Of a DNA stretch of 64,000 nucleotides, positions 3,494 through 54,490 are shown piece after piece (positions within the stretch are counted from its first letter, which is position 1; every line of letters begins with the position of its first letter). The DNA is from Phormidium sp. OSCR (GTDB lineage: Bacteria; Cyanobacteriota; Cyanobacteriia; Cyanobacteriales; Geitlerinemataceae), in the NCBI GenBank assembly GCA_001314905.1, contig LJZT01000008.1, forward strand, positions 1 to 64,000, read 5' to 3'. The notes under the pieces were generated by a model. The model had not been told where the DNA came from. It searched no databases and saw only the letters and a program-made list of their open reading frames with translations. Made by a program: the position numbers and the translations under genes.

Positions 3494-3497
3494 AAGA

Positions 3498-3543
3498 AAG
3501 GCAAGAGGCAAAAGGCAAGAGGCAAGAGGCAAAAGGCAAGAGG
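3498..3543. repeat. Heptamer array (STRR), GGCAAGA/GGCAAAA
   Basis: About six tandem 7-bp units, mixing GGCAAGA and GGCAAAA, end five bases before the nadE start codon. The pyrimidine-rich strand is the nadE coding strand, so the nadE leader is TTGCCTC-type repeat with no purine-rich ribosome binding site. Confidence 0.9.
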
Positions 3544-3586
3544 TAATCCCTTTTGATTCCCCTAGGCAATAGGCGAAAGATAGGTG

Positions 3587-3949: not shown

Positions 3950-3999
3950 TTTTTGTAGTACTCCGAATCAAGAAAGACTGTATCCTATTTGGATGTTTT

Positions 4000-4094
4000 G
4001 CTTTTACCTTTTGCCTTTTGCCTCTTGCCTAGGGCGACCACAAGGGTACGCCCCTACGTCTTTTCTTTTGCCTCTTGCCTTTTGCCTTTTGCCT
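4000..4094. repeat. Heptamer array split by a small hairpin repeat
   Basis: TTGCCTC/TTGCCTT heptamers run on the plus strand from about 4002 to 4030 and again from 4063 to 4094. Between them sits a hairpin element, AGGGCGACCACAAGGGTACG and following bases to 4057. Its reverse complement recurs almost exactly at 49321-49351. One dispersed repeat has therefore been inserted into another. Confidence 0.85.
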
Positions 4095-4097
4095 CTC

Positions 4098-32752: not shown

Positions 32753-33460
32753 TCATCCGGCATCCTCGGTAAATTTAATGTGATTGATGGTTCCGTCATC
32801 CTTCAACGATTTAATTTCAACCTTGATGGGTTGGTTGAGAGGAATTTTATCGTAATTTTTTGCCTCTCTTTCGTTAAACATATGTCCGCAACATTGATAA
32901 GTAACCCTGTTTCTGCTGCCTTTTTTCGTGGCAACTGCATCTAGGATGTGACCTTCTTTCAGTTCCATATCAATAACGTTGGGAGCTGATTCTGGTGAAG
33001 ATGTTGATGAAATGCTAGGTGATTTTTTGATAGCTTGCTGATAGTCTTCAAGTTGCTGTCTTAGATGGTTCTTGATTTTTGCTTTTTTGCTCCCGTCTTT
33101 GGGTAACAAGGTTTCATAGTATTTAGCCAACCCAGACGCCCAACCTAACACTTGACAAACGACTTCAAAATCATTAAATTCTTGCCTTAAAAGTTGGCGC
33201 AAGTAGTAATCAAAAATATCGTATAATGATTCGTAGTATTTCTGTGTTTTGTTACTATGGGAAATAGTAGATCCATGCCGTATCAAAGTTTGGTAGTACG
33301 TCAGAAGATGCTTACCCAAATCTTGGTGACGAGAGATAGTTCGCAAATAAGAAATTGCTTTTCTTAATTCATTTATATCGGTTTCATCTAAGACAATTTC
33401 CAAGGCGATCGCATGGGAAATATGCCAATGTCTTTCCGATAAACGATGTGGATTTATCAT
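32753..33460 (-). CDS. Unrecognised last gene of the type III-D operon
   Basis: 235 residues. Residues 1-150 look alpha-helical (HWHISHAIALEIVLDETDIN, YYESLYDIFDYYLRQLLRQE). After a Ser-rich linker, residues ~165-235 look like a small beta-barrel: LKEGHILDAVATKKGSRNRV, a lone CC pair, and VEIKSLKDDGTINHIKF, similar in style to an OB-fold. It starts two bases after the preceding RAMP gene, so it is almost certainly translated with the CRISPR proteins. I do not recognise the family. A structural or RNA-binding partner is conceivable, but that is inference. Confidence 0.7.
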   Translation of the reverse strand: MINPHRLSERHWHISHAIALEIVLDETDINELRKAISYLRTISRHQDLGKHLLTYYQTLIRHGSTISHSNKTQKYYESLYDIFDYYLRQLLRQEFNDFEVVCQVLGWASGLAKYYETLLPKDGSKKAKIKNHLRQQLEDYQQAIKKSPSISSTSSPESAPNVIDMELKEGHILDAVATKKGSRNRVTYQCCGHMFNEREAKNYDKIPLNQPIKVEIKSLKDDGTINHIKFTEDAG

Positions 33461-33462
33461 GT

Positions 33463-34554
33463 TTAGTACTCAAGTTTAGGTTGACGTTGGCTGGGGTATG
33501 AGAGGATTTCAGAAATTTGTTGCAGTTGTTGAGAGTCAATAAGATGTTGGCGATGCGCCTCAGCTAAGGAGGTTTCAATGAATTGTGTTAATGCGTCACC
33601 GGTAATCCCTGGGGATTCCGCATCATAGCTGCGGTAGCGATCGCCCATAGATTCAGGTTGTTCAATTTCAGTAATTTGAACTTCGACTGTTCCTAAACCA
33701 ATGGGTTTTCCTGCACCCACTTTGAGATAAAAGCCATGTTTTGTATCCAAGCCAAGGGCCGCAAAGACAGACCCCAATTCCGCAGGGGTTAAACTGTGAT
33801 AGCGAATTTGGGTCGTAAACACATACTCCGCTAAGGCTTGCTGAGCTAAAACCCCTTTCTCGGCACGACTGATAGGATGTGAAAAATGATAATAGAATTT
33901 GCGACCTTGAACTTGGCGCGATGACATATCAAAGTAGTCGTCATTCAAGTCTTTACGACGTTTTTCCTCATAAAATTTCTTTTCTTGTGGGGCATACAGA
34001 GAGGGTAAACACTGAACTCTAAATTCATTAGTTTGACAGCGAGCATCTTGAAAATGGAGAACTCCCTGCCAGTTCATCGCCCCGAATAAACGGCTGGACG
34101 GGCAAAGTTGATGAACTCTCCTAGGATTTAAACTGCGGTGTTGAGGAATCCATCCTTCTCGGCGAGCAAATGGAGTAATTGCCCCTAATGTGCTGTTGGT
34201 GATTGCTTCATGAATGCTACGAACGACGCCTTTTAGTGATGAGCCTGGCAGAAGTAAATGTTGGTCATTACCGCGAAGCATGGTTTTGAGGATGTCATAT
34301 TGTGGTTGCTCGATATCCTCCCCGAGAACCATGACGCCTGTTGAGATGTGAACGGCATTTTTGACAATTAGTTTTAGATGCAAACGTCCACTGCGGCGCT
34401 TTTGTTGCTCGTGATACTTTTCATGACCATGATATTTAGGTGTGCCTAAAGATGGACGCTGTCTAGGAAAGGGAACGATAACATATGGCTTTTCTTCTGA
34501 ATTCGATGTGTTAGGACGTTGAGGGCGTGGACGTTGAGGGTGTGAAGGAGACAT
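33463..34554 (-). CDS. RAMP (Cas7-like) protein 4 of the type III-D operon
   Basis: 363 residues. A RAMP ferredoxin-like fold is indicated by LHLKLIVKNAVHISTG, the LLLPGSSLKGVVRSIHEAI segment (PGSSLKG is the Cas7 thumb-proximal hallmark) and the closing glycine-rich loop GAGKPIGLGTVEVQITEI. The central part is long and charged, with LFGAMNWQGVLHFQDA as in Csm3/Cmr-type proteins. It should be a backbone or capping Cas7 of the effector. An aspartate in the GEDIEQPQYD stretch precedes PGSSLKG, but whether it cuts RNA is uncertain. Confidence 0.8.
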   Translation of the reverse strand: MSPSHPQRPRPQRPNTSNSEEKPYVIVPFPRQRPSLGTPKYHGHEKYHEQQKRRSGRLHLKLIVKNAVHISTGVMVLGEDIEQPQYDILKTMLRGNDQHLLLPGSSLKGVVRSIHEAITNSTLGAITPFARREGWIPQHRSLNPRRVHQLCPSSRLFGAMNWQGVLHFQDARCQTNEFRVQCLPSLYAPQEKKFYEEKRRKDLNDDYFDMSSRQVQGRKFYYHFSHPISRAEKGVLAQQALAEYVFTTQIRYHSLTPAELGSVFAALGLDTKHGFYLKVGAGKPIGLGTVEVQITEIEQPESMGDRYRSYDAESPGITGDALTQFIETSLAEAHRQHLIDSQQLQQISEILSYPSQRQPKLEY

Positions 34555-34556
34555 AA

Positions 34557-34988
34557 TTAATTTACAGTTAAGGCAACAAAATGAACGATCGCCGTGTCGC
34601 GATCTACGAAATAACGCTGTTGAAGATTGAAGTCGGAAGAGAACTCGGGAACTCCCTTGGGTAACCGAGTTTCACTGGAGGGGTAAACCTTGGCAGGGCG
34701 ATCGCAGTACTCCCAATCTCCCGCCATCGTCTGAAACTCCCCTGGAGGGGGTTGAGTTCCTAGCCAGAGGAGATCGTAACCCTCCCGGTTCTGAGTCCAT
34801 CGGAGTTCTAAGCTGGCGTTAAACATCCGGCCCTCGGGACTTAGAGGACGTTTGGGTAGTTGGCAGGAAAATCCTTCGATGCGATCGACATATTGCAAAT
34901 AATAATAGACCGTTTCATCAACCTGAAGCTGTTGCTTGAGTTGCTCTAAAGAAACACCAGACTGGTAGCCGATAAATGCCTCATTCAT
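34557..34988 (-). CDS. csx19: Csx19-like type III-D protein
   Basis: 143 residues from the ATG at 34988, which overlaps the previous stop as ATGA. Features: FIGYQSGVSLEQLKQQL, YYYLQYVDRIEGFSCQLP, LRWTQNREGYDLLWLG and a C-terminal QQRYFVDRDTAIVHFVALTV. This layout and the position among RAMP genes fit Csx19 (TIGR03984), a marker of subtype III-D and an effector-complex component. The name is from memory of the family and position, so it is moderately sure. Confidence 0.6.
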   Translation of the reverse strand: MNEAFIGYQSGVSLEQLKQQLQVDETVYYYLQYVDRIEGFSCQLPKRPLSPEGRMFNASLELRWTQNREGYDLLWLGTQPPPGEFQTMAGDWEYCDRPAKVYPSSETRLPKGVPEFSSDFNLQQRYFVDRDTAIVHFVALTVN

Positions 34989-35926
34989 GCGGCAACTCCT
35001 CCTAACAATGCCCGCCATTTTGGCATGGTTCTGATAAAGATATCTTTGACCTGTTCGGCCCCTTGCCAGGTTAACTGAACTCCAACGCCCAAGTCCATCT
35101 CTTTCCCTCCTACCGGAACTACCACTTCATCGTCTTCCGGAAAACTATAAGGATTATTTGTGAGAAATTCACCCACCCCCAACAGTTTAGTAATTGTCCA
35201 ACGTTTGTTAGACCCCAACAGTTGAATATGCCCATCCTGAAGAACACAGCCAGGATAACTCACTTGGGCTGAGTTGAATTGCACGTCAACTGTCCCCAGT
35301 CCCCGAGATTTACCGAACCCCAATCCAAACCAACCTTGATCGAGATCTCGCAAGACCAAACCAATCAAAGCCAGTTGGGCTAAGGTAAAGTTTTTTAGAT
35401 GAATTTTGCTGCGAAATTCTCCATCGGTGCAAACTTGGTAGTTAAACGGTCCAACCGCAACGGAACCAAAGACCCGATCAATGGCGACCCCATTGCGTTC
35501 TTCGAGTTTGAGAGGATGTTCTGAACTCGGATAGGCATCTTCGATTCTCAGACGACTGGCGAGGGCCGTGTTGCCAAAAATCTGCTCCGTAAAGGAGGAT
35601 TGGCGATAGATTTCAGAGGGTGTTTTACCTTTAAGACGTTCGTCGTTACTGTTAATTGGGTCATTTGCCCAGAGACCCGATTTCCCCTCAGAAGGAGGAT
35701 TGTCCCCTCCCACTGTGCGAACAATCCGTTCGGCATGGGCGCGAATTGCCCCTTTCAGGCTACTTCCAGGCAGATAAACCGATCGCCCTCCGGCGTGATA
35801 GGTTTCGACGAATTCCATATCGGGTTTGGTGGGATCAGCCCCTTCTTTTCCTGATTTGACCAAAAGAGGACCAACGGGCCGAATGCTGAAATCTAGGGTG
35901 CAGTGGTTAACAAGTCGCTTGTGCAT
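34985..35926 (-). CDS. RAMP (Csx7/Cas7-like) protein 3 of the type III-D operon
   Basis: 313 residues. LDFSIRPVGPLLVKSGKEGA, then YLPGSSLKGAIRAHAERIVR, FTEQIFGNTALASRLRIEDA, RNGVAIDRVFGSVAVGPFNYQV and the glycine loop GFGKSRGLGTVDVQF define a Csm3/Csx7-type Cas7. It binds the crRNA backbone. Asp residues in GADPTKPDMEFV occupy the loop where the Csm3 catalytic Asp lies. Its stop overlaps the csx19 start by 4 bp. Confidence 0.85.
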   Translation of the reverse strand: MHKRLVNHCTLDFSIRPVGPLLVKSGKEGADPTKPDMEFVETYHAGGRSVYLPGSSLKGAIRAHAERIVRTVGGDNPPSEGKSGLWANDPINSNDERLKGKTPSEIYRQSSFTEQIFGNTALASRLRIEDAYPSSEHPLKLEERNGVAIDRVFGSVAVGPFNYQVCTDGEFRSKIHLKNFTLAQLALIGLVLRDLDQGWFGLGFGKSRGLGTVDVQFNSAQVSYPGCVLQDGHIQLLGSNKRWTITKLLGVGEFLTNNPYSFPEDDEVVVPVGGKEMDLGVGVQLTWQGAEQVKDIFIRTMPKWRALLGGVAA

Positions 35927-35943: not shown

Positions 35944-36558
35944 TTACAAATTACATAGGTTTTCAACGGTGATGTCGAGTTGAGGAAAGGTGGAAGACTT
36001 GAGGCGATCGCCCCAACGATATCCCGCCATTTTATAGGTGTTATCCTCTTGCAAGGTACAGATAAAAAGGGTGGGTTCTTTGGGATTGCCTAAATACTGG
36101 CGACTTCCAACCGCGAGATAGTCCACAATCCAATACTCAGGAATAGCAAATCGTTGGTACTCTTCAAATTTATCAACGTAATCATCTTCCCAATTGGTGG
36201 ACACCACTTCAACCGCAAGCTGGGGTGGGTCAAGAAGTGCTGAGGGAGCCATGGGGGACTCTTCCCAACGGCGACGATCAACGACCACAACATCGGGATG
36301 TCGTCCCTGTTGCACCCCGCTGGATGTTTCGGTTCTTATAAAGATACGACCCGAGACGTGAAAATTCTCTTGATGCTGTCTGATATGTTGTCTTAGGGTA
36401 TCAGTAATGGCATCGGCAATATCATCATGTTTACGAGTCGGAAGTCGTCTCACAATTTGTCCATTTACGAGTTCATAGTCTCCGGCTTCATCGGGAAGAT
36501 TTTCAAGAAATTGATGAAAGCTCAGGTGCGAATCGGTTTGTTCCTGGATAATCTTCAT
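35944..36558 (-). CDS. Uma2 family endonuclease inside the CRISPR operon (second)
   Basis: 204 residues from the ATG at 36558 (MKIIQEQTDSHLSF). The PD-(D/E)xK core of the Uma2/DUF820 family is intact: HPDVVVVDRR (Asp), PQLAVEVVSTNWEDDYVDKFEEY (Glu and Lys) and IPEYWIVDY. Uma2 proteins are abundant in cyanobacteria, with unproven roles. It sits between two Cas7 genes with spacers of 10 and 17 bp, so it is part of the operon. It may be cargo or an accessory nuclease; the sequence alone cannot tell. Confidence 0.85.
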   Translation of the reverse strand: MKIIQEQTDSHLSFHQFLENLPDEAGDYELVNGQIVRRLPTRKHDDIADAITDTLRQHIRQHQENFHVSGRIFIRTETSSGVQQGRHPDVVVVDRRRWEESPMAPSALLDPPQLAVEVVSTNWEDDYVDKFEEYQRFAIPEYWIVDYLAVGSRQYLGNPKEPTLFICTLQEDNTYKMAGYRWGDRLKSSTFPQLDITVENLCNL

Positions 36559-36568
36559 TGGCTTCTTC

Positions 36569-37477
36569 CTAGGATACATCGTTAACAGGTGTTGTCGGTT
36601 GGGGCGATCGCCGACGTAATTCGGTCAGTAACGCCGTCATCCATTGGTCTTTTAACGCCTGTTGTTGGTCTTCATTTAGGTGATAATCATTCAACTCGTC
36701 ATCAACCAAATGTTGTAAATAAGTAAGCAGTTCGTTGGGGGAACTAGGATTAACCCAGTCCATGCGATCGAGTTTCAGACGAACAATTCCTAACCCGCGC
36801 GATCGCCCGCCACCCAAAGGAATTTGTTCACGTTCAAATTGGTGCAATCCTAACATCAACAATCCTAATTCCCAAGGTTCAGCATTTTCCATCACCGCTT
36901 TGAACTCAAAGGGAGTTGCAGCGGGAACTACTTGAAAGTCATAGAGTTTTCCGTCGGCGGCGGTTTCGGTATCGCGATCAATCGCCACGCCATCCCGTTC
37001 TTGATATTGTCCAAACCAGTTCTCAGCAGGATTATCAATGGTCAAATCTCGCACCTGAAATTTACTGGATAGCCAGGGAGAACCGAACACTTTGGAAATC
37101 AGATCAGTGTTTTGCAAAATATGGTCTGTCAGTTGGCGATCGTCGGTATATTGGCGATCGTCGGTATATCGGGTTTTTAACGCCCGCATTTCTGACGCCG
37201 TGATTGACCATTCTGACTCATCACTGGGATTGGCTACAAGATGACGAAGGTGAGTCTCAGAGACTCCGCTAAAGACTCCTCGGAGGAAACTCTCTAGGCG
37301 CGATCGCAAGGCCCCTTTGAAGCTAGAACCGGGAATCAGGGGATACCCTAAGGCATCTTTCATCACAGGTAAATCACAGCCAATGGGTTCAAGGGAGCGT
37401 CCCGAACTCACCCGCAAAGCTGTTACGGTTTCTAATGTTCCGGTAATGGTGAGTCGATTTTTAAATGTATCAAACAT
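36569..37477 (-). CDS. csm3: Csm3-like Cas7 (RAMP) protein 2
   Basis: 302 residues: LTITGTLETVTALRVSSG, the loop LEPIGCDLPVMKDALGYPLI with the Asp equivalent to the Csm3 catalytic Asp, PGSSFKGALRSRLESFLRG, VFGSPWLSSKFQVRDL, RDGVAIDRDTETAADGKLYDF and the glycine loop GGGRSRGLGIVRLKL. This is a target-RNA-cleaving backbone subunit. An 18-bp tandem duplication (37134-37169) gives YTDDRQYTDDRQ. It starts 28 bp after a Uma2 gene. Confidence 0.88.
   Translation of the reverse strand: MFDTFKNRLTITGTLETVTALRVSSGRSLEPIGCDLPVMKDALGYPLIPGSSFKGALRSRLESFLRGVFSGVSETHLRHLVANPSDESEWSITASEMRALKTRYTDDRQYTDDRQLTDHILQNTDLISKVFGSPWLSSKFQVRDLTIDNPAENWFGQYQERDGVAIDRDTETAADGKLYDFQVVPAATPFEFKAVMENAEPWELGLLMLGLHQFEREQIPLGGGRSRGLGIVRLKLDRMDWVNPSSPNELLTYLQHLVDDELNDYHLNEDQQQALKDQWMTALLTELRRRSPQPTTPVNDVS
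37134..37169. repeat. In-frame 18-bp tandem duplication in the csm3-like gene
   Basis: TTGGCGATCGTCGGTATA occurs twice without change, adding one YTDDRQ hexapeptide. The unit contains GCGATCG, a HIP1-like core. Confidence 0.9.
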
Positions 37478-37505: not shown

Positions 37506-38072
37506 TTAGTTGAATTTTAGTAAATCAAAAATCTGATTTGCAGACATTGTCCAGTGTGTCAATTTTTTTAACCCCGGAACCTCATCATCTCCTTGTTTGA
37601 TTTCCGGCTGTTGTCCCGACTGAAAAACCAAAATCATGAGTTCCTTAGGGTCAATGAGCCATCCTAATTCTGTTCCTGCATTTAAGCAAAATAAGATATT
37701 ACGAATGACGCGGGTTTGACGTTGTTCAGGGGAGAGGATTTCAATCGTCCAATCTGGTGGTTTATCAAACTGGTTGGCAATTTCGCCGTCTTCGTCTAGG
37801 GGGATATTTTGCCAGTAAAAGACAGCAATATCTGGGACGAATGAACGTCCTGTAAATGTACAACGCAGCTCTGTTAAAGCAAACCCCAGCTTGGACGGTT
37901 CTGCGATCTGGTTAATTCGTGCAGAAAGACGAGTTTGTAATAAGCTGTGTTTTCCCTTAGGCACAGGCTTTTCTTCGATTTCTCCATCAATATACTCGCA
38001 AGCTGGCTTAGTCTCGGGTTGTTGTAGAAACTCGTCAAGGGAGATGAATTTATTTCGAGTTGTAGGTATCAT
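37506..38072 (-). CDS. Uma2 family protein inside the CRISPR operon (first)
   Basis: 188 residues. Start MIPTTRNKFISLDEFLQQPE, RCTFTGRSFVPDIAVFYWQN (Asp), PPDWTIEILSPEQRQTRVIRN (Glu) and LGWLIDPKELMI follow the Uma2/DUF820 plan. The Lys normally found in the KxxxY helix is replaced here by VIRNILF, so catalysis is doubtful. Its ATG overlaps the stop of the Cas11-like gene (ATGA at 38069-38072), which ties its translation to the CRISPR complex genes. Confidence 0.85.
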   Translation of the reverse strand: MIPTTRNKFISLDEFLQQPETKPACEYIDGEIEEKPVPKGKHSLLQTRLSARINQIAEPSKLGFALTELRCTFTGRSFVPDIAVFYWQNIPLDEDGEIANQFDKPPDWTIEILSPEQRQTRVIRNILFCLNAGTELGWLIDPKELMILVFQSGQQPEIKQGDDEVPGLKKLTHWTMSANQIFDLLKFN

Positions 38073-38560
38073 TTTTGTTTTAGAAAACTATTTTCTTTTT
38101 GGTTTTCTGTTTGACTTTTTTGCTGTTTGGATTCAGATTTCAAGAAATTTATATACTTTAGACGACGAGAACCATAGCCTAGATACCGGCGAATTAAGTC
38201 GAGCCAAATTTGTTGATAAAATTCTTGTCCCACCTCTTCAGAAATGACTTGGGCCAAGTCTTTCAAAACGTTGTCAATGTCATCAATAATTTGATTTGCA
38301 AGAGAGTTTTTGGATCGACCCCATTTTTCCTCTCCCTTTCCCTGCCGCCCGACTTGATATAAAAGAAAATTTTTAATTACCTCCGTGCTGTCAGTACTTT
38401 CTGCCACACGAACCAAATTACGAAATTGTGCATCTTCCAGGTTGCCATATTGGGATTCCTCTAAAGCTTTTTGAATCGCCACTACCAATTGATCTTCAAC
38501 TTGACGGATGCCTCGCTGAATCTTCAACTCGACTTGGGGATTTAAGATATTCGAACTCAT
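38069..38560 (-). CDS. Cas11-like small subunit of the type III-D complex
   Basis: 163 residues, almost wholly alpha-helical: VELKIQRGIRQVEDQLVVAI, FRNLVRVAESTDSTEVIKNF, NQIIDDIDNVLKDLAQVISE and a Lys/Gln-rich tail. Size, helicity and place directly after csx10 match the small subunit (Csm2/Cmr5 group 11). VAESTDSTEVIKNFLLYQVGR resembles the Csm2 core, where a helix is followed by FxxYQxGR. It starts and ends with ATGA overlaps. Confidence 0.65.
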   Translation of the reverse strand: MSSNILNPQVELKIQRGIRQVEDQLVVAIQKALEESQYGNLEDAQFRNLVRVAESTDSTEVIKNFLLYQVGRQGKGEEKWGRSKNSLANQIIDDIDNVLKDLAQVISEEVGQEFYQQIWLDLIRRYLGYGSRRLKYINFLKSESKQQKSQTENQKENSFLKQK

Positions 38561-39792
38561 AGGGCATTCTCCCGAAAAACTTGATGAAACTCATGACAAA
38601 CCTTCACCTGTCCAAATCCTTCCAGGGTACGATCGCCAATTCCTTTATATTCTAGCTGACTCAGCGCCTCAGACCAGGCATCCAAATGATTCGTCCCAAA
38701 CAAATATAATCCTCCTTTCGTTGTCGTCAGTTCCACATCTTTCATGAAGCCCCAAGCTGAATTCCACCCCGAGACGGTATCAAAACTACTGTAGGCGTTG
38801 TGGAGCGTTAGGCTATCATCAGAGACTCCCGTTAACTGTTTCAAATCCTCTGCCGTAATGACGGTGGTGCGTCGCCAATTTTGACGTAGAATTGCATCAG
38901 ATTGTAGATTGAGGGTGAAGTAATTCCGTTGAGGGAGCGATCGCGGTTCCCGCACGCTTCGCGATCGCCCCGGATAGAGGCTCGTCCAGAGTTGCCAACG
39001 CTGTTGCAGCAGTTGATTAAACTGTTTCAGTCGCGGCTTCAGATTCGATTGCCAAGGAACGGCCGTCGCTTGAATCTCAACCTGACCAAGTCCCCGAGAA
39101 GCACTTCCCCCTAGGCGAAATCGCTGGCGGTTTTGGTTAATAAATTGGCTTAAGGCATCCGCCAGGGAGTCCTCCTCAAGCAGAATCCCACCCCGATAAA
39201 CCACCGGTTCACCATCTTCTCGATAGTCATCCAAAACCTCCAAACTATAGAGGATTTGTTCTTCAGCGGTGGCGCGGCGGCGGTTAATACCCACCCGAGT
39301 CAGAAGTCGTTTGGGAACGGACAGCGTTTGATAACCCTGACGCGTTTTATTATAGAAGCCGCTAAAGGGTTCGACTCGTCCCTCGCCCTTCTCTGCCGCT
39401 TGGGGACAGTTGGGATCATACAGTTGCCCACAAGCCTCAGCGCAGAAGCGATCAATCAGGGTATCGAAGACCCCATATCCCTTGGGTTTGAAGCCGGGTT
39501 TGGCCTTGGCGCTGACAGCCGTGACGGGCAATAGGTCGACGGCTGAATCAGCAGTGAGGCTGGGATAGGCGTTTTGGAAAATTGCCGCCTTATCTTCGAC
39601 AAAGAGGCGGGAAAAGTCATCTCCAGGTTGCGGCTGTGAGTTGTTGGGGTGAGCGCGCAAAAGATGGCCGGCGATCGCCCCGCGAATCACGGAACCAGCG
39701 ATAAAGTCCGCCGCCTCACTCACGGAACCGGGTTTTTTACGACCGATGGCGAGGGCGGATTTCGCAGTAATCGTCAGTTGAATCTGTTTCAT
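38557..39792 (-). CDS. csx10: Csx10 (Cas5-group RAMP), type III-D marker
   Basis: 411 residues from the ATG at 39792, which overlaps the upstream stop as ATGA. KQIQLTITAKSALAIGRKKP, FIAGSVIRGAIAGHLLRAHP, TRVGINRRRATAEEQILYSLEVL and two glycine-rich loops (LGGSASRGLGQVEIQ and KGIGDRTLEGFGQVKV) are the double-RAMP layout of Csx10 (TIGR02674), which caps the crRNA 5' handle. A 32-bp HIP1-capped repeat is inserted at 38937-38968 (YPGRSRSVREPRSLPQ). Good confidence. Confidence 0.85.
   Translation of the reverse strand: MKQIQLTITAKSALAIGRKKPGSVSEAADFIAGSVIRGAIAGHLLRAHPNNSQPQPGDDFSRLFVEDKAAIFQNAYPSLTADSAVDLLPVTAVSAKAKPGFKPKGYGVFDTLIDRFCAEACGQLYDPNCPQAAEKGEGRVEPFSGFYNKTRQGYQTLSVPKRLLTRVGINRRRATAEEQILYSLEVLDDYREDGEPVVYRGGILLEEDSLADALSQFINQNRQRFRLGGSASRGLGQVEIQATAVPWQSNLKPRLKQFNQLLQQRWQLWTSLYPGRSRSVREPRSLPQRNYFTLNLQSDAILRQNWRRTTVITAEDLKQLTGVSDDSLTLHNAYSSFDTVSGWNSAWGFMKDVELTTTKGGLYLFGTNHLDAWSEALSQLEYKGIGDRTLEGFGQVKVCHEFHQVFRENAL
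38937..38968. repeat. HIP1-capped 32-bp repeat, copy 2 (inside csx10)
   Basis: Identical over 32 bp to 3032-3063 in nadE. Here it is read as RSRSVREPRS rather than DREACGNRDR, because it entered the gene in another frame. Both genes remain open. Confidence 0.85.
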
Positions 39793-40505
39793 GCCACACC
39801 TCCAGGGAGCAACTCTTGCCAATTTGCATCACCCATCTCAGGGCGGGTTGTCCAAGTTAACCAGCCTAACCCCGTGGATTTGCCACCCCCCAAGGCGTGA
39901 ATGTGACCTAAGGCAGCGCTGAGGAGGAGTTTAGTATAAGGGGGAGCATGGGGGTGAATGTATAAACTTCCCTGAAATTCCAGATTAAGGTTAGCCGGGG
40001 AGGTTTCCAAGAAATAGAGTTTTTGGTCTTCAGCGGTGAGACGGCGGCGGTTGAGAGTGACGCCGGGACGTAATACCTCAGGAAGCGTATCAGTGGCCTC
40101 ATGACAGATGAGATCGTTGACATCGACCTGAGAAGGTAAACTCGGATTGCCGAAGATTTGGCAGATGAGACAATGGTGACGAGAGTCTTCCTCAACACGA
40201 TACTCATCCCGTTGGAAACGGGTCTCCTCTGCTTCAGTTAAGCGAGCCCGTTGGGGACACATCGTGGCTGGATTGGGGGATTGACAGACGGGCCAGCCAA
40301 GTCCCCGGGCCAGTTTCTCGCACTCATGGCGCAAGCGTCCTTTGAGTTGGGAGGCGGGGATGAGGAGTTGTCCTCGGGCGTTGCGGAGGATGGGTTTGTC
40401 GGCCAGGGAACCGGAAGACCCCCCGGCGCCAACACAAAGTGCCGTGTTGATGGTGGCGGTGAGGGGCAGAGATTCCCCAATTTGGCTCGATTGCAGGTTA
40501 ATCAT
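39789..40505 (-). CDS. csm3: Csm3-like Cas7 (RAMP) protein 1
   Basis: 238 residues from the ATG at 40505, overlapping the cas10 stop by 8 bp. SLPLTATINTALCVGAGGSS, then SLADKPILRNARGQLLIPAS with the Asp in the catalytic loop, QLKGRLRHECEKLARGLG, a Cys-rich insert (GWPVCQ, ATMCPQ, HHCLICQIFGNPS; a possible zinc site), TLNRRRLTAEDQKLYFLET and the loop GGGKSTGLGWLTW. It is the first Cas7 of the complex. The Cys insert and HCLICQIFG are typical for Csm3. Confidence 0.85.
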   Translation of the reverse strand: MINLQSSQIGESLPLTATINTALCVGAGGSSGSLADKPILRNARGQLLIPASQLKGRLRHECEKLARGLGWPVCQSPNPATMCPQRARLTEAEETRFQRDEYRVEEDSRHHCLICQIFGNPSLPSQVDVNDLICHEATDTLPEVLRPGVTLNRRRLTAEDQKLYFLETSPANLNLEFQGSLYIHPHAPPYTKLLLSAALGHIHALGGGKSTGLGWLTWTTRPEMGDANWQELLPGGVA

Positions 40506-42795
40506 GGCCCGATACCTCCGACGGTGTGGCGAGGGAGTCACTCTTTAGTTGAGTATCACCTTCAATGAAGGGATATAAATCGACGATATCTCGCCAAAGG
40601 GTTTCATAGATAGTAGAGTCGTTTTCGCTGTCCAGTTGGCTCATCCAGGGGGCTAGGTTGCCCTTGTTCTCGGAGTCTTTTGGGGAACACCATATCTGTT
40701 CAAAATGGTCTTCTAAAAACTTTTGCTGCTCAGGCTTTAGGCGGACTCGAAAGTAGCGGTAGTTGAGGATAGCGGTTTGTTTACCCCGTTCTAGGAGACT
40801 GCGGATTTGATAGAGTTGCGATCGCGGAAACTCGGATTGTTTAAAAGCCTGAATTGTTTTAATCAAGCTCCCCACTTCTTGCAAGGTATAGGGACTGGCA
40901 TGAAGTTTGAGCTTGGGTGGGCCAGGAACAACCCATGCTTGTTGACGAAATTCCTCAATATTGGAGGATATCATGGTTACAGACTTGAGGGTTAAGATAT
41001 CGATTGTACCTCCCAAGTAACCTTTGTCTTTTTTTAGAGTTTTGGCATATTTTTTGGCAGATTTGAGCAATTGATTGACCAGGCGATTGGCATAGTAAAT
41101 TGGCGTATCATATTTTGTGGTTAGCACCCCAATTGATGTACTGAGTTGGCTGTTGCGGAATGAAGTGAGTTGGCGGCGATCGCGGTGAGGATTTCCAGAA
41201 GGCCTAACGGCATCTGGAATACGATATTGTCCCGTCTGTTCCAAAATTTCCTCAAATTTCTCGCCAATATCTTGAGCAATTTGCAGCGCCTGATTAGCCG
41301 GAACAATAATCATCACGTCATCCCCGCCAATAGCAATAATTTCAAAGGGGTGAACCCAGTCGCCATTACGATCTTGATTATCTTGTTTTTTTAGGTTGTT
41401 CAATTCATGGGGATGAAGGCGATTAGCCAAGGCATAATAGACCGACTTCTCCGTTGCCTCAAAAATATGTTCGCTAAACTGCGAATACTCTTCTGGGGTT
41501 TTAATTTTCTGGATATAGCCCCCCATATTGTTGCCATCGGCATAGATAAAACTGAGAAATCTATTACTAGCATTGGCAATTTCCTCAACATTGCGAGTTT
41601 CTGTAACCGAGGACTTGGGGCAATCTCGATAATACTGCTGTTGCAAGCCTTGATGAGACTCCTCTGTGAGATATTGCCGAAACCGTTCCACCCAACTATC
41701 AACATAACCAGGAGTCCAATCTAATCCTAAATTCTGATACCAGTCAGGACGGTTGTTACGCTCAACTTTCGTCTGTTGTCCCATCAAGTATTTCCGCGCT
41801 AGAGGTTCAGAAAACTTGGGTTTGCTGGGGAGTTCGCTGATAGTGCCGAGGCTAGAGATACGATTATTCTCATCCCGCATTAGGTAGGGATGGGTCTCAA
41901 AGTGGGGTGGATAGCGGCGAGTCGTGTCACGGGAGGGGGTATCATTGCCACTGCGACGTTGGTTGAAGCGGATGGCGAGTTTGCGTGTCAGTTCGTTGAA
42001 ACTTTTGCTATTGAAGAAGTTCTCTCGTTGTTGATTGGAGTTGTTAAGGCTGGCTTTACCAAAATACGCTTCGACGAGGGGATTGTTGGCGTTGTTTTGA
42101 TACCAATCGAACCAGGGAGTAGCGTCGAGGTTTTCCTGAAAGAGTCCAAAACGAATTTCTAGGAGTCGGAAGGTTTCGCCAACGGCGCAACTATTGGCGG
42201 TGAGGGTTTCTTGGGTATAGCGTTTTTCAATGGTATCCGCGAGGCGGTTAGTATAGGCGGCGGGACAGAAGGCGAGAATATTGCCCCCAGTAGAATAGAT
42301 GATGAGTTGGGGAATTAAGGCGTCAGCCAGTTGAGGATCGTGGGTTTTGAGCCAATTGCGGGGACTGCGGTAGTCTTCTAGGTCATTGTTGGGGTTCTGT
42401 TTGCCGAAAAAGGCGGGGATATCGATGAGGTTGATGCGATCTAAAATTGCAGAAGCGCCCCGAATTTCCATCAGGTTGGCGGAGTCGAAGACATAGTTTT
42501 TGATTTTGGTTGCACCCCCATAGACTAAGCCAATGGGGGTGGTTTGGTTCCAGACATCTCCGACGAGTTGTTGAACGGCGCTGAGGGTTTCGGGTTCTGC
42601 GTCGCTGGGAATGGCTTGGAGTTGTTCAACCTGCTGGACGATATCCTGCAAGTCTGCGGGAATCTCGTCACCGTTGGATTGGATGAAGGTATCGAGGTGG
42701 CTGCGATCGCACTTCGGTTCCCCTTCATCTCCCCAGGCTAAGCACCAAGTTAGGGCAAGTTTTAGGTTGGTTTGGATTTCCTGAAGTGAAGACAT
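40498..42795 (-). CDS. cas10: Cas10 large subunit with intact GGDD, no HD domain
   Basis: 765 residues. A first palm-like domain (about 85-215) carries a degenerate STGGNILAF strand in place of GGDD. The second palm has FIYADGNNMGGYIQ (418-429) and the cyclase motif IAIGGDDVMIIVPA with GGDD at 490-493. No N-terminal HD nuclease motif is seen, as in many III-D Cas10. It should make cyclic oligoadenylates when target RNA is bound. It lies 49 bp after the CARF-HEPN gene and overlaps the next gene by 8 bp. Confidence 0.92.
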   Translation of the reverse strand: MSSLQEIQTNLKLALTWCLAWGDEGEPKCDRSHLDTFIQSNGDEIPADLQDIVQQVEQLQAIPSDAEPETLSAVQQLVGDVWNQTTPIGLVYGGATKIKNYVFDSANLMEIRGASAILDRINLIDIPAFFGKQNPNNDLEDYRSPRNWLKTHDPQLADALIPQLIIYSTGGNILAFCPAAYTNRLADTIEKRYTQETLTANSCAVGETFRLLEIRFGLFQENLDATPWFDWYQNNANNPLVEAYFGKASLNNSNQQRENFFNSKSFNELTRKLAIRFNQRRSGNDTPSRDTTRRYPPHFETHPYLMRDENNRISSLGTISELPSKPKFSEPLARKYLMGQQTKVERNNRPDWYQNLGLDWTPGYVDSWVERFRQYLTEESHQGLQQQYYRDCPKSSVTETRNVEEIANASNRFLSFIYADGNNMGGYIQKIKTPEEYSQFSEHIFEATEKSVYYALANRLHPHELNNLKKQDNQDRNGDWVHPFEIIAIGGDDVMIIVPANQALQIAQDIGEKFEEILEQTGQYRIPDAVRPSGNPHRDRRQLTSFRNSQLSTSIGVLTTKYDTPIYYANRLVNQLLKSAKKYAKTLKKDKGYLGGTIDILTLKSVTMISSNIEEFRQQAWVVPGPPKLKLHASPYTLQEVGSLIKTIQAFKQSEFPRSQLYQIRSLLERGKQTAILNYRYFRVRLKPEQQKFLEDHFEQIWCSPKDSENKGNLAPWMSQLDSENDSTIYETLWRDIVDLYPFIEGDTQLKSDSLATPSEVSGHD

Positions 42796-42844: not shown

Positions 42845-44179
42845 TCAACTGTCTTCTAATTCTGAATCATTTGCTTCAGGGGAGGTGATTGGCGGTAGAA
42901 AATTGTTGGCGATCGCCTTGAGTTCAAGATAGAGTTTTTGGGCTCGTTCACGTAATTTTGTAGCTGGAGAAGGTCCTGGGTTCATTCCAACATGAGCAAT
43001 ATCATTTCTTAATTCCGTCATTTTTGACCAAGTTTTTGTTAATTCATCAATCCCTGGCAATTTTTCAAAGTCTTCGTCCAGTGAACAATTTTTGACTGGA
43101 CGCGGTTCTTTTTTACGAATCTCAGTGGCGTTGTTCAGGGCTAGTTCAACATCATTACGTCCACCATGCAACTGAAACATTGGTTTGTCAAAACGGAGAA
43201 CCAAGACCGAGATAATCCACTCTCGGGCTAATGTCACTGCTTGAACGATTTGGTCATGGGCTAAATACCAATCGATCATCTTAAGTTGCAACAAAAGGTT
43301 TGTCGCTAAAACGTCCCGGCTTTTGGGGTCATTTAAGGCAAACTGCCCCTGTTCTTCAATGATTCGATCAACCAGCAAGGTGAAGGGCTTGGCACGCTTT
43401 TCAAGCGTCGGCATAGCATCCCTCAGTCTTGATTCTAAATCGCAGGAAGCTTCCATAGTTTCAATCGGACGAGTGATTCCCAATGCTAGTGAAACCGATT
43501 CGATTGCCTCAGCCGCTTTAGTTAAATGGATACGAATGGGGCGTGTTTCAGGCTGATCTCGTAATTCTTGATTCGAGGGAATAACTTTTCTGAGAAGACT
43601 AGCTAAGTCTTTCCCATTTCCAGTTTTAATAAATTGGTCTGTTGCTGCTGTCCATTCCAATAAACCCACAATTGGCAGTAGATCAACAACTGGAGCTTCA
43701 TTCTTCCCTGGCTGAAATGCACCATAAACAATCCCCTCAATCTCAACGTTACGAACAACTCGTAGATAACTGACAGCAATTAAAGCTAGCACCGGGAGAG
43801 AACGGAAGCCATGAGTGATATCAAACAGGATGCGATCGCCCTCTTCAATATGTTCAGTAATCTTATCAAAAATCACCCAAATATCATTCTCATTGTGATT
43901 TTCTGGAATCTCTCGAATTGCTTGCAAGTCAACTCGTCCCGCCAAGCTGTCTTCGAGCATTTTCCAGTTCGATTGGGATAACTCTTCCGGTATTTTAAAC
44001 TCTGCGGTGGGTGTCAATAAGACATAGAGGGTATCAATTGGATAAAACTCGATTAAGGCTTCTTGAAAAAAACGAGTCGTTTTTAATTCTCCAGCAAGAC
44101 TTCGATAGTTGGTCTTACTATAACCCCTGGGATTAAAACCTAAAAATGAAATCGCCTTCAGCTTAGATTGAGATGTCAT
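42845..44179 (-). CDS. CARF-HEPN ribonuclease (Csx1/Csx2 family)
   Basis: 444 residues. The N-terminal CARF half has KAISFLGFNPRGYSKTNY and the DxTHG motif in RILFDITHGFRSLPVLAL (D120-G124), which binds cyclic oligoadenylate. The C-terminal half is helical and ends with the HEPN catalytic motif ELRNDIAHVGM (R391-x4-H396). It is the effector RNase switched on by Cas10 product, degrading RNA indiscriminately. It is the first gene of the operon, so it is made together with its activator. Confidence 0.9.
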   Translation of the reverse strand: MTSQSKLKAISFLGFNPRGYSKTNYRSLAGELKTTRFFQEALIEFYPIDTLYVLLTPTAEFKIPEELSQSNWKMLEDSLAGRVDLQAIREIPENHNENDIWVIFDKITEHIEEGDRILFDITHGFRSLPVLALIAVSYLRVVRNVEIEGIVYGAFQPGKNEAPVVDLLPIVGLLEWTAATDQFIKTGNGKDLASLLRKVIPSNQELRDQPETRPIRIHLTKAAEAIESVSLALGITRPIETMEASCDLESRLRDAMPTLEKRAKPFTLLVDRIIEEQGQFALNDPKSRDVLATNLLLQLKMIDWYLAHDQIVQAVTLAREWIISVLVLRFDKPMFQLHGGRNDVELALNNATEIRKKEPRPVKNCSLDEDFEKLPGIDELTKTWSKMTELRNDIAHVGMNPGPSPATKLRERAQKLYLELKAIANNFLPPITSPEANDSELEDS

Positions 44180-45327: not shown

Positions 45328-48300
45328 TTATTCCTCAGCATCCAGGCTATCCGACTCCAGAGCCTGTTGCTCAAACTTTAACGTCTTGCAGTTCTCAAGC
45401 ACGGTTCGAGCCACATCCTCGGGAATCCCCTCTGGGATATCTGCATCAATGTCTAACGTGATTCGGACCTTAGCATTTTTCAAGGTGGTTAAATGTTGAA
45501 TGACCTCATCCGTCACCAGTCCTACATCCCGATTTAGCCGCAACGCATCCAGATTCACCGTTCCCCGAAATCGTCGTAAAACCGTTGGCGTTGGATTGGG
45601 ATTGTCTGCACCCCCATCTGATGAGGTCCCTCCCTGCGGCCAATCTCCCCCGCGTTCCCCAACTGTTGACCCTTTAGAGGTTTTTCCAGATGAGGTTTTT
45701 CCAGATATAGAACCCCGCTTTTGTTCCTCCTTTGCTCGCATTTCTTCGAGTTGTTTTTGGGCAATTGTGGGTTTAACAATTAAACAATTACGACTAATAC
45801 TCGGGCTAATTCCTGTCCCTGCTTTGAGTCCCTGATAGGTTCCTGTTTCTTCGTCAAACCCTTCGGCGTAGGCAAAATAATCCGTCCAAACGGTGGACAT
45901 AACGCCCGCCTCGATCGCCCCCAATAAAACCTGTTTATCTGTTAGTCGCGGTAAATAGAGATATTGGGTTAAGTATTTCCAGAGTTGTTCGAGGTCAATG
46001 TGATTGTTCTCCGGCCAGATAAACGTATCTAGAACTTCCAGACCTAAAACTTGGGGACTAAACGTATCCGATAAATCTTCCTCATGGGCCGCTTTCTGAC
46101 TCGCTCGCTGAATCATTGTTTGGGGACCTTGCAGACGGTTGGTTTTCCATTGAATCGCCCCCGTCGGCTCCGGTTGTTCTGGAACCAATAACCATTGATA
46201 GACCTCAGTGATGGAGTTGTTCACATCTTGGTCAACCTGTTGCCGTTTGGTGGTTGCTTGTTTCGTCTGATAGGGATCTAAGTTTAACTCATCCTTCTCA
46301 TCCAAAATTGCCGTCCAAGCTAGATATTGCGCGACTATCTTTTCCAATCCCTCCAACTTGGCCTTATCCCCCGCCAAAAATAAGAGGGTATTCTTGTAAT
46401 AGCGCGGACTGCTACCTTTATTGTTCAAGACCTCCTCAACCCAGTCCTGGGCAGGATTGTCGGCAGATGATTGTTTATCATAGGGAGACTCCGGCGGCAC
46501 AATAACCAGGCGCACCCCGGCATCGCGCTCATCGGGAATATCGCTGCTGGACTTTGGGGCCACATGAACTGCTGAAAACTGACCCCGATCGCGATCGCGC
46601 TTCAGTCGTTTTACCAGTTCTTCTAACACCAAATAGCGATCGCCCTCACTAAGAAATTGATGAGCGCGTTCCTGGGCCGTGCGGTTCACATTTGGCTGAG
46701 TCGAGACCCAGTAACGATTCCCATCCACATAAAGATAAGTCCCGCGATCGGTGAGTCGTCGCAGTGCATCCCCAAACGTGGCCACCGTCTCCCCCGGTTG
46801 CACACAGCCGAGGCGAATGCGACGTTCCTCTAAGCCGCGAGTGGCGGCCCGTAGGGTGGGGGCTGACCCCATATAAATGGTGCGCGTGACGCGACGACAA
46901 GCCGAATAGCGACCGAAATTCGGGTACTCGCGATCAATCGCCAGAGGTAACGAATTGGCTCCATCCACATCCTTGTCGATAATGGGAATCCAATTATCCT
47001 CTAAGTAGCGGGTCAGTTCCGACTGCACCTGGGAGTCATCCATCGGTACATTGCCCGGCATAATCATTAAACTGCTGTCATTGCGTTCCCAGAGGGTATG
47101 AATCACCTTCGCCATCAGCCGCAACACCCCCCGCGTGCGCTGAAACTTCTCTAAACTTGACCAGTCTGAATAGAGGCGATCGAATAACTCAGGATGAATC
47201 GGATACGCCTCTACCATCCGTCGCTTATAATCCGCCTCCTTGGTTTCCGTGGGGAACTCCTGACTTTGGCTGCGGTACATCTCCCAAAAGGCCTTAATCA
47301 CCGCATCCCGTTGCCTAAACAGGGTCGGGTCTTCACTCCCCTGAAACAACCGCCGTCGCACAATCTCAAAACTTTCCTCCGCACTGGCCGGCCGCCAGGG
47401 AGACTCCACCCGACCGATCGCATTCTTAAGGCGTTCCGTGGCTTCCTGTCCCTTGTCCCCCCCTTTCTCGATATCCGACGAGGGAATACTCACCACTAAT
47501 AAGGCATCTTTGGCATTCTTCGCCGACTCACTCAGAGTTTGCGCAAAGGTAAACTGAGTATCAAAACTGCCCCCCGCCAAATCCGCTTGGTCATGGAGTT
47601 GACGCGCATAGGCCACCCATTCATCAATCAGAATCAGACAAGGGGAAAAGCGGTTAAACAGTTGTTTGAGAGTATCGCCAGGATTCGTCGCCGTCTCGTC
47701 CGCCTCCCGTAGCATCTCATAGCCGGCTTCTCCTCCCAATTGCCAGGCCAGTTCCCCCCAGAGGGTTTTGATCAAGGGGGGACGGTTGCGCATCCCTTTG
47801 CCATAATCTTTGATGCCACTGGGGGGTAGTTTATTCCCCACCAACACCGCTAGATTGACATCTTGGGGAGGTTCCTTGAGATTGGTTTCCCGAAAAATCT
47901 CCTCCATCCCCGGTAAATCCTTAATCTGGAGTGCTTGACAGAGGTGATAGAGGGCTAACATGGCGTGGGTTTTACCGCCGCCGAAGTTGGTTTGTAACTC
48001 AATGACCGGATCGCCTCCCTGACCTGTTAAACGCCGTAAAGCATTGCTCAGAAGCTGTTTTAAGCCTTCTGTGAGATAGGTGCGGCCATAGAACTCTGTG
48101 GGGTCGCGATATTCGTCTGACCCTTCATCGAGGTAGACTTGCCAGAGGTCAGCGGCGAACTCCGCTTGTTGGAACTTCCCCGACGCCACATCGGGATGAG
48201 GCGTGACAATCTCGCGCCAGGGTTTGAGTCCGCTTTGGGGTTGGCCTTCCGTGGGGGTGATGGCAACTTTACGGCTTTCTCGTCGGGCCTCGGCTTCATA

Positions 48301-48729
48301 CCGCAACCGCATCAGTTCCTGTTTCTCTTTATCGACTTTGTTGGCTTCTGGGGCGGAAATGGCGGTTAATAAACGGGCGATGCTATCGAGGGCGCGATAG
48401 GCGTCATCGGTCGAAAAACTGGTTTGGTGCGCCCAGTCGTTGCGGGTATCCCGTAGTTCACTGACAATGCTGCGTTCTGAACGACCGAGGATTTGGCGAA
48501 AGATGTTGTTCCACTGGTCCCACATGAGGATGAGGAGGGCGGACACATCGTTGTCAAGAACCTCCTCGACGGATTTACGGGCCACATAGCTATCGGGGAG
48601 AGAGGCGGAGGCGGTGAGTAACCAGCGATCGCCATAATTGGCTTTCATTTCCCGTTCAATGAAGGGATAGAGTCCGTCTCGGAGGAGGCTGAGGGCGCGA
48701 CCGACTCGTTCGTGATTGCTGATAGCCAT
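45328..48729 (-). CDS. HEPN-DUF499 ATPase, predicted anti-phage protein
   Basis: 1133 residues. The N-terminal ~120 residues form a Swt1-like HEPN domain with the motif RDTRNDWAHQ (R96-x4-H101). The DUF499 P-loop domain follows: QTNFGGGKTHAMLALYHL (Walker A 250-255) and CLILIDEWVAYARQL (Walker B near 370), with an arginine-rich region later. DUF499 ATPases occur with DUF1156 methylases and SNF2 helicases in defence islands and are predicted, by comparative genomics, to act against phage. It is last in the minus-strand series of the cassette, 49 bp after the DUF2442 gene. Mechanism unproven. Confidence 0.85.
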   Translation of the reverse strand: MAISNHERVGRALSLLRDGLYPFIEREMKANYGDRWLLTASASLPDSYVARKSVEEVLDNDVSALLILMWDQWNNIFRQILGRSERSIVSELRDTRNDWAHQTSFSTDDAYRALDSIARLLTAISAPEANKVDKEKQELMRLRYEAEARRESRKVAITPTEGQPQSGLKPWREIVTPHPDVASGKFQQAEFAADLWQVYLDEGSDEYRDPTEFYGRTYLTEGLKQLLSNALRRLTGQGGDPVIELQTNFGGGKTHAMLALYHLCQALQIKDLPGMEEIFRETNLKEPPQDVNLAVLVGNKLPPSGIKDYGKGMRNRPPLIKTLWGELAWQLGGEAGYEMLREADETATNPGDTLKQLFNRFSPCLILIDEWVAYARQLHDQADLAGGSFDTQFTFAQTLSESAKNAKDALLVVSIPSSDIEKGGDKGQEATERLKNAIGRVESPWRPASAEESFEIVRRRLFQGSEDPTLFRQRDAVIKAFWEMYRSQSQEFPTETKEADYKRRMVEAYPIHPELFDRLYSDWSSLEKFQRTRGVLRLMAKVIHTLWERNDSSLMIMPGNVPMDDSQVQSELTRYLEDNWIPIIDKDVDGANSLPLAIDREYPNFGRYSACRRVTRTIYMGSAPTLRAATRGLEERRIRLGCVQPGETVATFGDALRRLTDRGTYLYVDGNRYWVSTQPNVNRTAQERAHQFLSEGDRYLVLEELVKRLKRDRDRGQFSAVHVAPKSSSDIPDERDAGVRLVIVPPESPYDKQSSADNPAQDWVEEVLNNKGSSPRYYKNTLLFLAGDKAKLEGLEKIVAQYLAWTAILDEKDELNLDPYQTKQATTKRQQVDQDVNNSITEVYQWLLVPEQPEPTGAIQWKTNRLQGPQTMIQRASQKAAHEEDLSDTFSPQVLGLEVLDTFIWPENNHIDLEQLWKYLTQYLYLPRLTDKQVLLGAIEAGVMSTVWTDYFAYAEGFDEETGTYQGLKAGTGISPSISRNCLIVKPTIAQKQLEEMRAKEEQKRGSISGKTSSGKTSKGSTVGERGGDWPQGGTSSDGGADNPNPTPTVLRRFRGTVNLDALRLNRDVGLVTDEVIQHLTTLKNAKVRITLDIDADIPEGIPEDVARTVLENCKTLKFEQQALESDSLDAEE

Positions 48730-48778
48730 AGGGGTGAGGGTGAGGTGAACACTACAAGAAATGGAAGTTTGGGTGCGG

Positions 48779-49048
48779 TTAAACTTGAGTTTTGGCTTGG
48801 GGAGATGGTGCGCCTCGTAACAGTCCTTCTGTGCTTAAATCTTCATCGAGGTCTGGCCAATGGATACCATACCCACCTCCACAGATTTGCCAAGTGTTTC
48901 GTTGTTCTGGGGTCCCGTTGAGGAGTTTGGGATACCAGACTAATGGCACTGTTATGGTTCTACCATCTATTAAGTCAACTCGGATACGGTCTGGGGTGAA
49001 GGAAACTTGTTTCACTCTTTCGTCAGCCTTGATTTGTGAAATACTCAT
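48779..49048 (-). CDS. DUF2442 protein
   Basis: 89 residues with VKQVSFTPDRIRVDLIDGRTITVPLVWYPKLL followed by IHWPDLDEDLSTEGLLRG, the classic DUF2442 sequence. Such proteins commonly sit beside DUF4160 in toxin-antitoxin-like pairs. It overlaps the DUF4160 gene by 26 bp and precedes DUF499 by 49 bp. Confidence 0.9.
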   Translation of the reverse strand: MSISQIKADERVKQVSFTPDRIRVDLIDGRTITVPLVWYPKLLNGTPEQRNTWQICGGGYGIHWPDLDEDLSTEGLLRGAPSPQAKTQV

Positions 49049-49265
49049 TCCAAGCCTCTGATAATCGTGTTTGATGGTTTTCTACAATATCTTGGATCTT
49101 TTTCAATTCTTTGGCGCTAAAACCCAGGTTTTTGGCTAATTCAACCGGGTTTAACCAGAATTTAGCCGAGAGTTCATTGCGATCAATATGAATGTGAGGC
49201 GGTTCATTCGGTTCATGGCTGTAAAAATAGAATCGATAGGGTCCCTGACGCAAAACAGTTGGCAT
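49023..49265 (-). CDS. DUF4160 protein
   Basis: 80 residues from the ATG at 49265 (MPTVLRQGPYRFYFYSHEPN), the usual DUF4160 start, then PPHIHIDRNELSAKFWLNPV and LKKIQDIVENHQTRLSEAWN. A start at 49307 is possible. It forms a translationally coupled pair with DUF2442; a toxin-antitoxin role is suspected for such pairs but is not established. Confidence 0.88.
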   Translation of the reverse strand: MPTVLRQGPYRFYFYSHEPNEPPHIHIDRNELSAKFWLNPVELAKNLGFSAKELKKIQDIVENHQTRLSEAWNEYFTNQG

Positions 49266-49320
49266 TTCTTTAGGGAATTTAGATTTATACCATTTTCCAA
49301 AATTCATGCCACAGATGGCT

Positions 49321-49351
49321 GTAGGGGCGAACCCTTGTGGTCGCCCTCCCC
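49321..49351. repeat. GTAGGGGCGA hairpin repeat
   Basis: The reverse complement of this stretch matches 4031-4057 with one change. It folds through GGGCGA / TCGCCC. It lies just upstream of the DUF4160 gene. The adjacent 49371-49471 shows nothing else. Confidence 0.7.
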
Positions 49352-49471
49352 CAGTGTTGATGTATAGCAAACATATCGAAAAATGGTATTAGGTGTAAAT
49401 CTATTGGCATCATCCTGTATTTTAATGGTTTCATTAGATGTTTTTAGATACTTGAAGTATAGGAGACAAAA

Positions 49472-49723
49472 TTATCGATAAATAGATTTATTATGGTGAA
49501 GAGAAGGATTATCTAATTTTCCCGGTATGGCATCATCTCCTAACGTTGCAAAGACTTCCCAAGCATCTTCATTATCGGTATTTTCCATGACAATTGGTGG
49601 GTTTCTAGAGCCAACTGGAGAAGATGGCATGGCCTGGTTGAGTTTGGCAACTAAAGCCTGTTGTTCGTCTTCCGGTAAGGAATGAATCACATCAATGATT
49701 GAATCGACTAATTTGCTGTTCAT
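49472..49723 (-). CDS. Small acidic protein, antitoxin-like
   Basis: 83 residues from the ATG at 49723 (MNSKLVDSIIDVIHSLPEDE). An N-terminal helix with EQQALVAKLNQAM and an acidic middle (ENTDNEDAWEVFATLGDDA) resemble cyanobacterial antitoxins of PIN or RelE type. No toxin partner is adjacent unless DUF4160/DUF2442 serve. It starts 46 bp after the DUF1156 stop. I do not recognise it further. Confidence 0.6.
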   Translation of the reverse strand: MNSKLVDSIIDVIHSLPEDEQQALVAKLNQAMPSSPVGSRNPPIVMENTDNEDAWEVFATLGDDAIPGKLDNPSLHHNKSIYR

Positions 49724-49768
49724 GATGGTATCTCGGTGACAACGGGGGGTGAACAAGACTGGCGATGC

Positions 49769-52690: not shown

Positions 52691-52944
52691 GGGGAGCAGT
52701 TGAACACATAGTCCTCACTGTACCTCAACTGTTGCCCAGGAAACCAGCCGAGTGAGAGGTCATCCTCATCCTGACACGCCGCCTTCCTGGCCAGATGTGC
52801 GGCGGGTTGGCTCAACTCTCAATCCCTGTAGTACAATCAACCCCAAGTCAAAGCGAGCCAACGGTAAATCAGTGGCGACTTCAATACAGCCGTGTGATTC
52901 AAAAAGCGGGTCAGACTCCAGGAATCATTCGAGTCTATTAAGCC

Positions 52945-54462: not shown

Positions 54463-54490
54463 CAGCTTAACCGAACGTACACTGATTCTA

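Follow-up and report, generated by a model that had tools for sequence, protein, structure and literature searches.

Csx21 at the end of a cyanobacterial type III-D CRISPR operon: a predicted Cas11-like helical domain followed by an exchangeable tail of RNA-binding type

The window analysed here is a stretch of 64,000 nucleotides from Phormidium sp. OSCR (contig LJZT01000008.1), which carries a cas operon on the minus strand. The genes of this operon are ordered as CARF-HEPN (Csx1 type), cas10, cas7a, csx10, cas11, Uma2, cas7b, Uma2, cas7c, csx19, cas7t and csx21 (Table 1). Judged from its sequence, the operon is assigned to CRISPR type III-D, because cas10, csx10 and csx19 occur together in it, and csx21 thus sits in a type III-D cas operon. 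The csx21 open reading frame is real; it runs from 33460 to 32753 and consists of 235 codons starting with ATG. A preliminary description of this DNA stated that the gene starts two bases after the fourth RAMP gene. A gap of 2 nt was indeed seen between the ATG and the stop of the RAMP gene at 34554-33463, and the operon has five RAMP-type genes when Csx10 is counted, the last of which precedes csx21.

Table 1. Genes of the operon and parts of Csx21, in window coordinates
Feature	Position	Strand	Basis or detail
csx21, last gene of the operon	32753..33460	minus	235 aa; PADLOC PDLC01516 E=1.5e-45
Csx21 C-terminal S1/OB-like barrel, residues 165-235	32756..32968	minus	AF2 model, structural and profile comparison
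Csx21 flexible linker, residues 147-164	32969..33022	minus	AF2 model; residues 151-162 pLDDT below 50
Csx21 N-terminal Cas11-like helical domain, residues 9-118	33107..33436	minus	AF2 models and structural comparison
cas7t, terminal TIGR03986-type Cas7, translationally adjacent partner of csx21	33463..34554	minus	profile matches and neighbourhood
csx19	34557..35018	minus	PADLOC E=8.9e-40
cas7c (RAMP)	34985..35926	minus	profile matches
Uma2-family protein within the operon	35944..36579	minus	E=2.5e-30
cas7b (Csx7)	36569..37477	minus	TIGR02581 E=1.9e-71
second Uma2-family protein	37506..38072	minus	E=4.6e-34
cas11 (Csm2-type small subunit)	38069..38560	minus	E=3.7e-51
csx10 (Cas5 of III-D)	38557..39822	minus	E=1.9e-123
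cas7a (RAMP)	39789..40541	minus	profile matches
cas10	40498..42795	minus	PADLOC E=6.9e-56
CARF-HEPN effector, Csx1/TIGR02221 type	42845..44179	minus	profile matches

Several other features were observed in and around the operon. The slot between cas7b and cas7c is occupied by a 206-residue protein of PD-(D/E)xK type in 48 of 61 cyanobacterial III-D operons (L045-L116, L denoting a locus; counted by motif), and PADLOC PDLC01472 (PD-(D/E)xK) matched two of these proteins. In the window, this slot (35944-36579) is taken by a Uma2 gene, whose family carries the annotation putative restriction endonuclease. Such a gene of nuclease type between cas7b and cas7c may be functional. Three large genes adjoining the operon (45328-58081) are matched by the HmaC, HmaB and HmaA profiles (PADLOC, E=0 each), which assign them to a Hma-type defence system. 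An exact repeat of 33 nt, rich in GCGATCGC, is found at 3032-3064 and 38937-38969, the latter copy being inside csx10.

It had been thought that the last protein of the operon is unrecognised and matches no Cas family. This has to be revised, because the PADLOC Csx21 profile matches it over its full length (residues 7-231, E=1.5e-45), and its scanned non-cyanobacterial relatives also match Csx21 models (41 of 41). On profile evidence, the protein is the Cas protein Csx21, which PADLOC already recognises by name but which is uncharacterised. Pfam and NCBIfam have no family for the window protein. The word csx21 was absent from the open-access papers searched, Csx21 is missing among the updated profile families named in the text of the 2025 classification, and it is absent from the subunits described for the solved III-D complexes (SsoCsm and Synechocystis III-Dv).

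A scan of genome contigs with the window protein alone gave no relatives because the window Csx21 has diverged. With an alignment of the Csx21 family, we retrieved 80 loci from public genomes, mostly of Cyanobacteriota, together with Chloroflexota, Poribacteria and one record titled Proteobacteria. Csx21 profile matches, some of them partial or weak, were found in 38 of 386 cyanobacterial genomes, and the window's own genome has one match only. Matches were also found in Chloroflexota (21 of 400 genomes), Anaerolineae (17 of 396, a set partly overlapping that of Chloroflexota) and Poribacteria (9 of 84), and none in the viral contigs searched. A cas7t homologue lies upstream of csx21 in 79 of the 80 fetched loci. 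The distance is 30 nt or less in 66 of them, often with an overlap of one base; loci deviating from this spacing have inserted toxin-antitoxin-like, Uma2 or unknown genes. The order csx19-cas7t-csx21 is kept in most of those Chloroflexota and Poribacteria loci whose length allows it to be seen, and in a rearranged operon of Poribacteria (L122) cas7t is the nearest upstream cas gene to csx21. The preliminary description regarded csx21 as coupled to the CRISPR proteins, unless its homologues lay mainly away from CRISPR loci. None of these loci or genome searches gave a csx21 copy that lay outside a CRISPR operon, so the coupling stands, and it extends across several phyla.

The genes inserted between cas7t and csx21 are diverse. 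The III-D operon L122 has a gene for a SIR2-like and TPR-type protein there (3162-4586). L047 (9268-10645) and L057 (9271-9952) have two genes there that resemble a toxin-antitoxin pair, and in L047 the second frame of the pair is fused in frame to Csx21. Two Chloroflexota loci, L117 (8802-9965) and L121 (8896-10014), encode proteins of 388 and 373 aa at this place, and neither has NCBIfam or PADLOC matches.

The full-length Csx21 model made with AF2 (pLDDT 88.6) contains the helical part that had been expected from the sequence, with helices in residues 9-118 plus a helix at 123-146 that is specific to the window protein. The first 120 residues form five helices in the model, and residues 1-122 modelled alone gave a pLDDT of 90.4 and a pTM of 0.83. 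Foldseek searches of the PDB gave nothing significant with either the full model or the N-terminal domain, and the ranking given here came from a second structural aligner. With the full model, 8bmw_B was the top match (Z 9.0, rmsd 3.0, 103 aligned) and 3x1l_F was next (Z 8.2); 8bmw chains A-E are Cas11 (PMC9945777). The N-terminal domain matched 8bmw_C (SsoCsm Cas11) with Z 8.9, rmsd 2.6 and 93 aligned residues, although a Z of 8-9 is not decisive for a small helical bundle, since such bundles match easily. Below 8bmw_C are Cmr complex chains, 2oeb, 4gkf (PfCmr5), 2zop (Cmr5) and Csm complex chains, and the Cmr and Csm chains are, to judge from their lengths and titles, small subunits or Cas10. 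The C-termini of Cas10 also appear (6ifu_A 650-757 and 8s9u_A 633-781). Thus, from Z 8.9 to about 6, the matches are type III small subunits nearly throughout (Cas11, Cmr5, Csm2 and the Cas11-like end of Cas10). Only a few matches above Z 6 are to unrelated folds, among them a TRiC chain (9unw_B, Z 9.1) and membrane NQR/RNF chains (Z 6.4-6.6).

At the sequence level, no such similarity was found. The hhalign comparison of Csx21 with the operon's own Cas11 gave a probability of 1.4% and aligned the last helix only (LGW..RLMRYY against LGY..R..KY). Searching PDB sequences with Csx21 profiles gave nothing meaningful, the window protein has no Csm2 match among the PADLOC profiles, and profile-level similarity to Cas11 families is lacking. 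The modelled N-terminal domain has the small alpha-helical fold of five to six helices seen in Csm2, Cmr5 and Cas11, and the strength of this assignment is moderate. We call the domain Cas11-like and not a member of the Cas11 family, because helical bundles match easily, Foldseek was not significant and profile similarity was not found.

After a disordered stretch (residues 151-162), the model continues into a five-stranded OB barrel (172-230), which agrees with the OB-like character proposed for the last ~70 residues. In structural comparison the barrel is closest to S1 domains and related OB folds, including the ribosomal S1 domain 7a05 (Z 7.2, rmsd 2.9, 70 aligned). The window protein is below the curated threshold of Pfam S1, and a profile comparison between the cyanobacterial Csx21 tails and the canonical S1s of relatives gave E=0.002 with a probability of 13.8%. 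The CC pair pointed out in this part is present in the window protein, but it is not conserved in relatives and therefore carries no weight; a metal site at this pair was rejected for the same reason. It had also been suggested that such a fold often binds RNA. The barrel resembles S1, and relatives with the same N-terminal domain have Pfam S1 or CSD, which makes RNA binding by this fold likely.

What follows the N-terminal domain differs among relatives. The same N-terminal domain carries a canonical S1 domain (L117, L122), two S1s (L121), a cold-shock domain (L120; CSD E=4.9e-15), a diverged OB-like domain, judged by eye, or a short K/R-rich tail. The E-values of Pfam S1 in these relatives go down to 1.5e-21, and among the 41 non-cyanobacterial members Pfam detects S1 in 8 and CSD in 1. 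Members without OB end soon after the N-terminal domain, usually with the K/R-rich tail, and such tails, 8-59 residues long, are net positive in 15 of 15 cases. The OB module can also be found elsewhere: it is a separate ORF adjoining that of the N-terminal domain in two cyanobacterial loci (L037, L038), and in III-Dv-like operons (L035, L036, L125) the terminal Cas7 carries the same OB as a C-terminal fusion, past the end of the TIGR03986 model. A Nostoc Cas7-insertion without OB has a K/P-rich tail at its end. The N-terminal part is constant, and the C-terminal part varies but is of RNA-binding type or basic. This pattern speaks for selection acting to preserve contact with RNA at the cas7t end of the complex.

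In type III complexes, two filaments, of Cas7 and Cas11, surround the crRNA. We consider it fairly probable that Csx21 is a two-part structural subunit of the III-D effector, which caps the complex next to the terminal Cas7 with its Cas11-like part and supplies an RNA clamp close to the 3' end of the crRNA. The N-terminal domain would most likely sit at the end of the Cas11 filament, adjoining the terminal Cas7, its operon neighbour, and the crRNA 3' end. The flexible linker would bring the S1-like OB domain to the crRNA 3' end of the complex, where the OB may capture or hold either single-stranded target RNA or the 3' end of the crRNA, near the seed region. We infer the presence of Csx21 in the complex, its position there and RNA binding by the window protein. 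The location at the crRNA 3' end is proposed because the terminal Cas7 of III-Dv-like operons can carry this OB as a fusion and because, in the Synechocystis III-Dv complex, the exposed 3' seed of the crRNA is held by the last Cas7, the Cas7-insertion subunit (PMC11026444). The separate cas11 gene already present in the operon speaks against a further subunit of this kind, and so does the absence of Csx21 from the subunits described for the solved III-D complexes. More tentatively, it is possible that III-D in general has a second, dedicated Cas11-type subunit which ends the filament and whose exchangeable module (S1, cold-shock, other OB or basic tail) takes hold of target RNA at the 3' seed of the crRNA, and that in III-Dv-like systems this module moved onto the terminal Cas7.

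Csx21 might instead be a factor for assembly or crRNA handling and not a stable subunit. It would dock on cas7t or Csx19 while the complex assembles, its OB/S1 or cold-shock domain would deliver, trim or protect the crRNA 3' end, and it would then leave. S1 and cold-shock domains are common parts of RNA chaperones, the gene order csx19-cas7t-csx21 fits such a role, and the linker permits movement. We regard this as unlikely, because the dominance of Cas11-like matches in the N-terminal comparison suggests a built-in subunit and because the OB fused to the terminal Cas7 in III-Dv-like operons stays on the complex permanently. Slightly less likely again is that the N-terminal domain is an unrelated small helical bundle that resembles Cas11, and that Csx21 is an accessory adaptor tethering an RNA-binding domain to Cas7t via another interface. 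The missing sequence-level link to Cas11 and a TRiC chain that scores equally high favour this reading, but independent families (III-D Cas11, Cmr5 and Csm2) as well as the Cas11-like Cas10 C-terminus all appear among the matches, with few unrelated folds above Z 6. That Csx21 works as an independent RNA chaperone or regulator, for example of operon transcription or crRNA precursors, merely sharing the operon, is very improbable: cold-shock and S1 proteins often act alone, but csx21 lies beside cas7t in nearly all loci of several phyla, it was never seen free of CRISPR, and its N-terminal domain is conserved while the RNA-binding part is exchangeable.

Csx21 persists in III-D operons of several phyla, and no role has been assigned to it. 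The proposal of a Cas11-like cap whose RNA clamp can be exchanged makes this gene a testable part of the effector complex and suggests how III-D complexes may end and find RNA. The S1, cold-shock and basic-tail versions amount to domain swaps made by nature and could serve to tune RNA-targeting complexes.

Among known systems, the Cas7-insertion (TIGR03986) of III-Dv and the Cas7-11 of III-E resemble cas7t as terminal Cas7 proteins of the same family, some members of which have the same OB at the C-terminus. Csx21, in contrast, is a protein apart from its Cas7 neighbour, which is short and lacks the large insertion, and the Synechocystis Cas7-insertion solved in III-Dv ends without a recognisable OB. 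The N-terminal domain of this pSYSA protein (residues 1-113; L150 6055-6393) is absent from the map, and its strand-like ending recalls the Csx21 OB by eye. It could be a transferred RNA-binding domain; Pfam found nothing convincing in the flexible N-terminal 112 residues.

Cas11 proteins (Csm2, Cmr5, Sso1424) are helical, of similar size and the best structural matches of the N-terminal domain, whereas Csx21 lacks profile-level similarity to them, has an additional linker and OB domain and occurs with a separate cas11 in the same operon. S1 and cold-shock OB domains have the barrel topology of the window model and occur in canonical form at the same place in Csx21 of Chloroflexota and Poribacteria, whereas the cyanobacterial OB is diverged and below Pfam thresholds. 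The PADLOC Csx21 models (PDLC01516/01485/01042/01083/01524) agree with the window gene in the full-length match and the position beside III-D genes, but they are labelled only 'associated' or 'unknown function', and the Cas11-like fold and the exchange of the C-terminal RNA-binding module are absent there. Neither the likeness to Cas11 nor the exchange of tails among unrelated OB families is stated in the open-access papers searched, and both appear to be new. The OB part is not, because Makarova et al. 2011 (PMC3150331) already describe two distinct fusions with an S1/OB domain in csx10 systems. Their main-text passages name neither Csx21 nor a Cas11-like partner and are without the cold-shock or basic-tail replacements; the two fusions are probably Csx21 and the Cas7 fusion. 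As the tail of a Cas11-like cap, the S1 domain that was reported from csx10 systems in 2011 would have a likely location.
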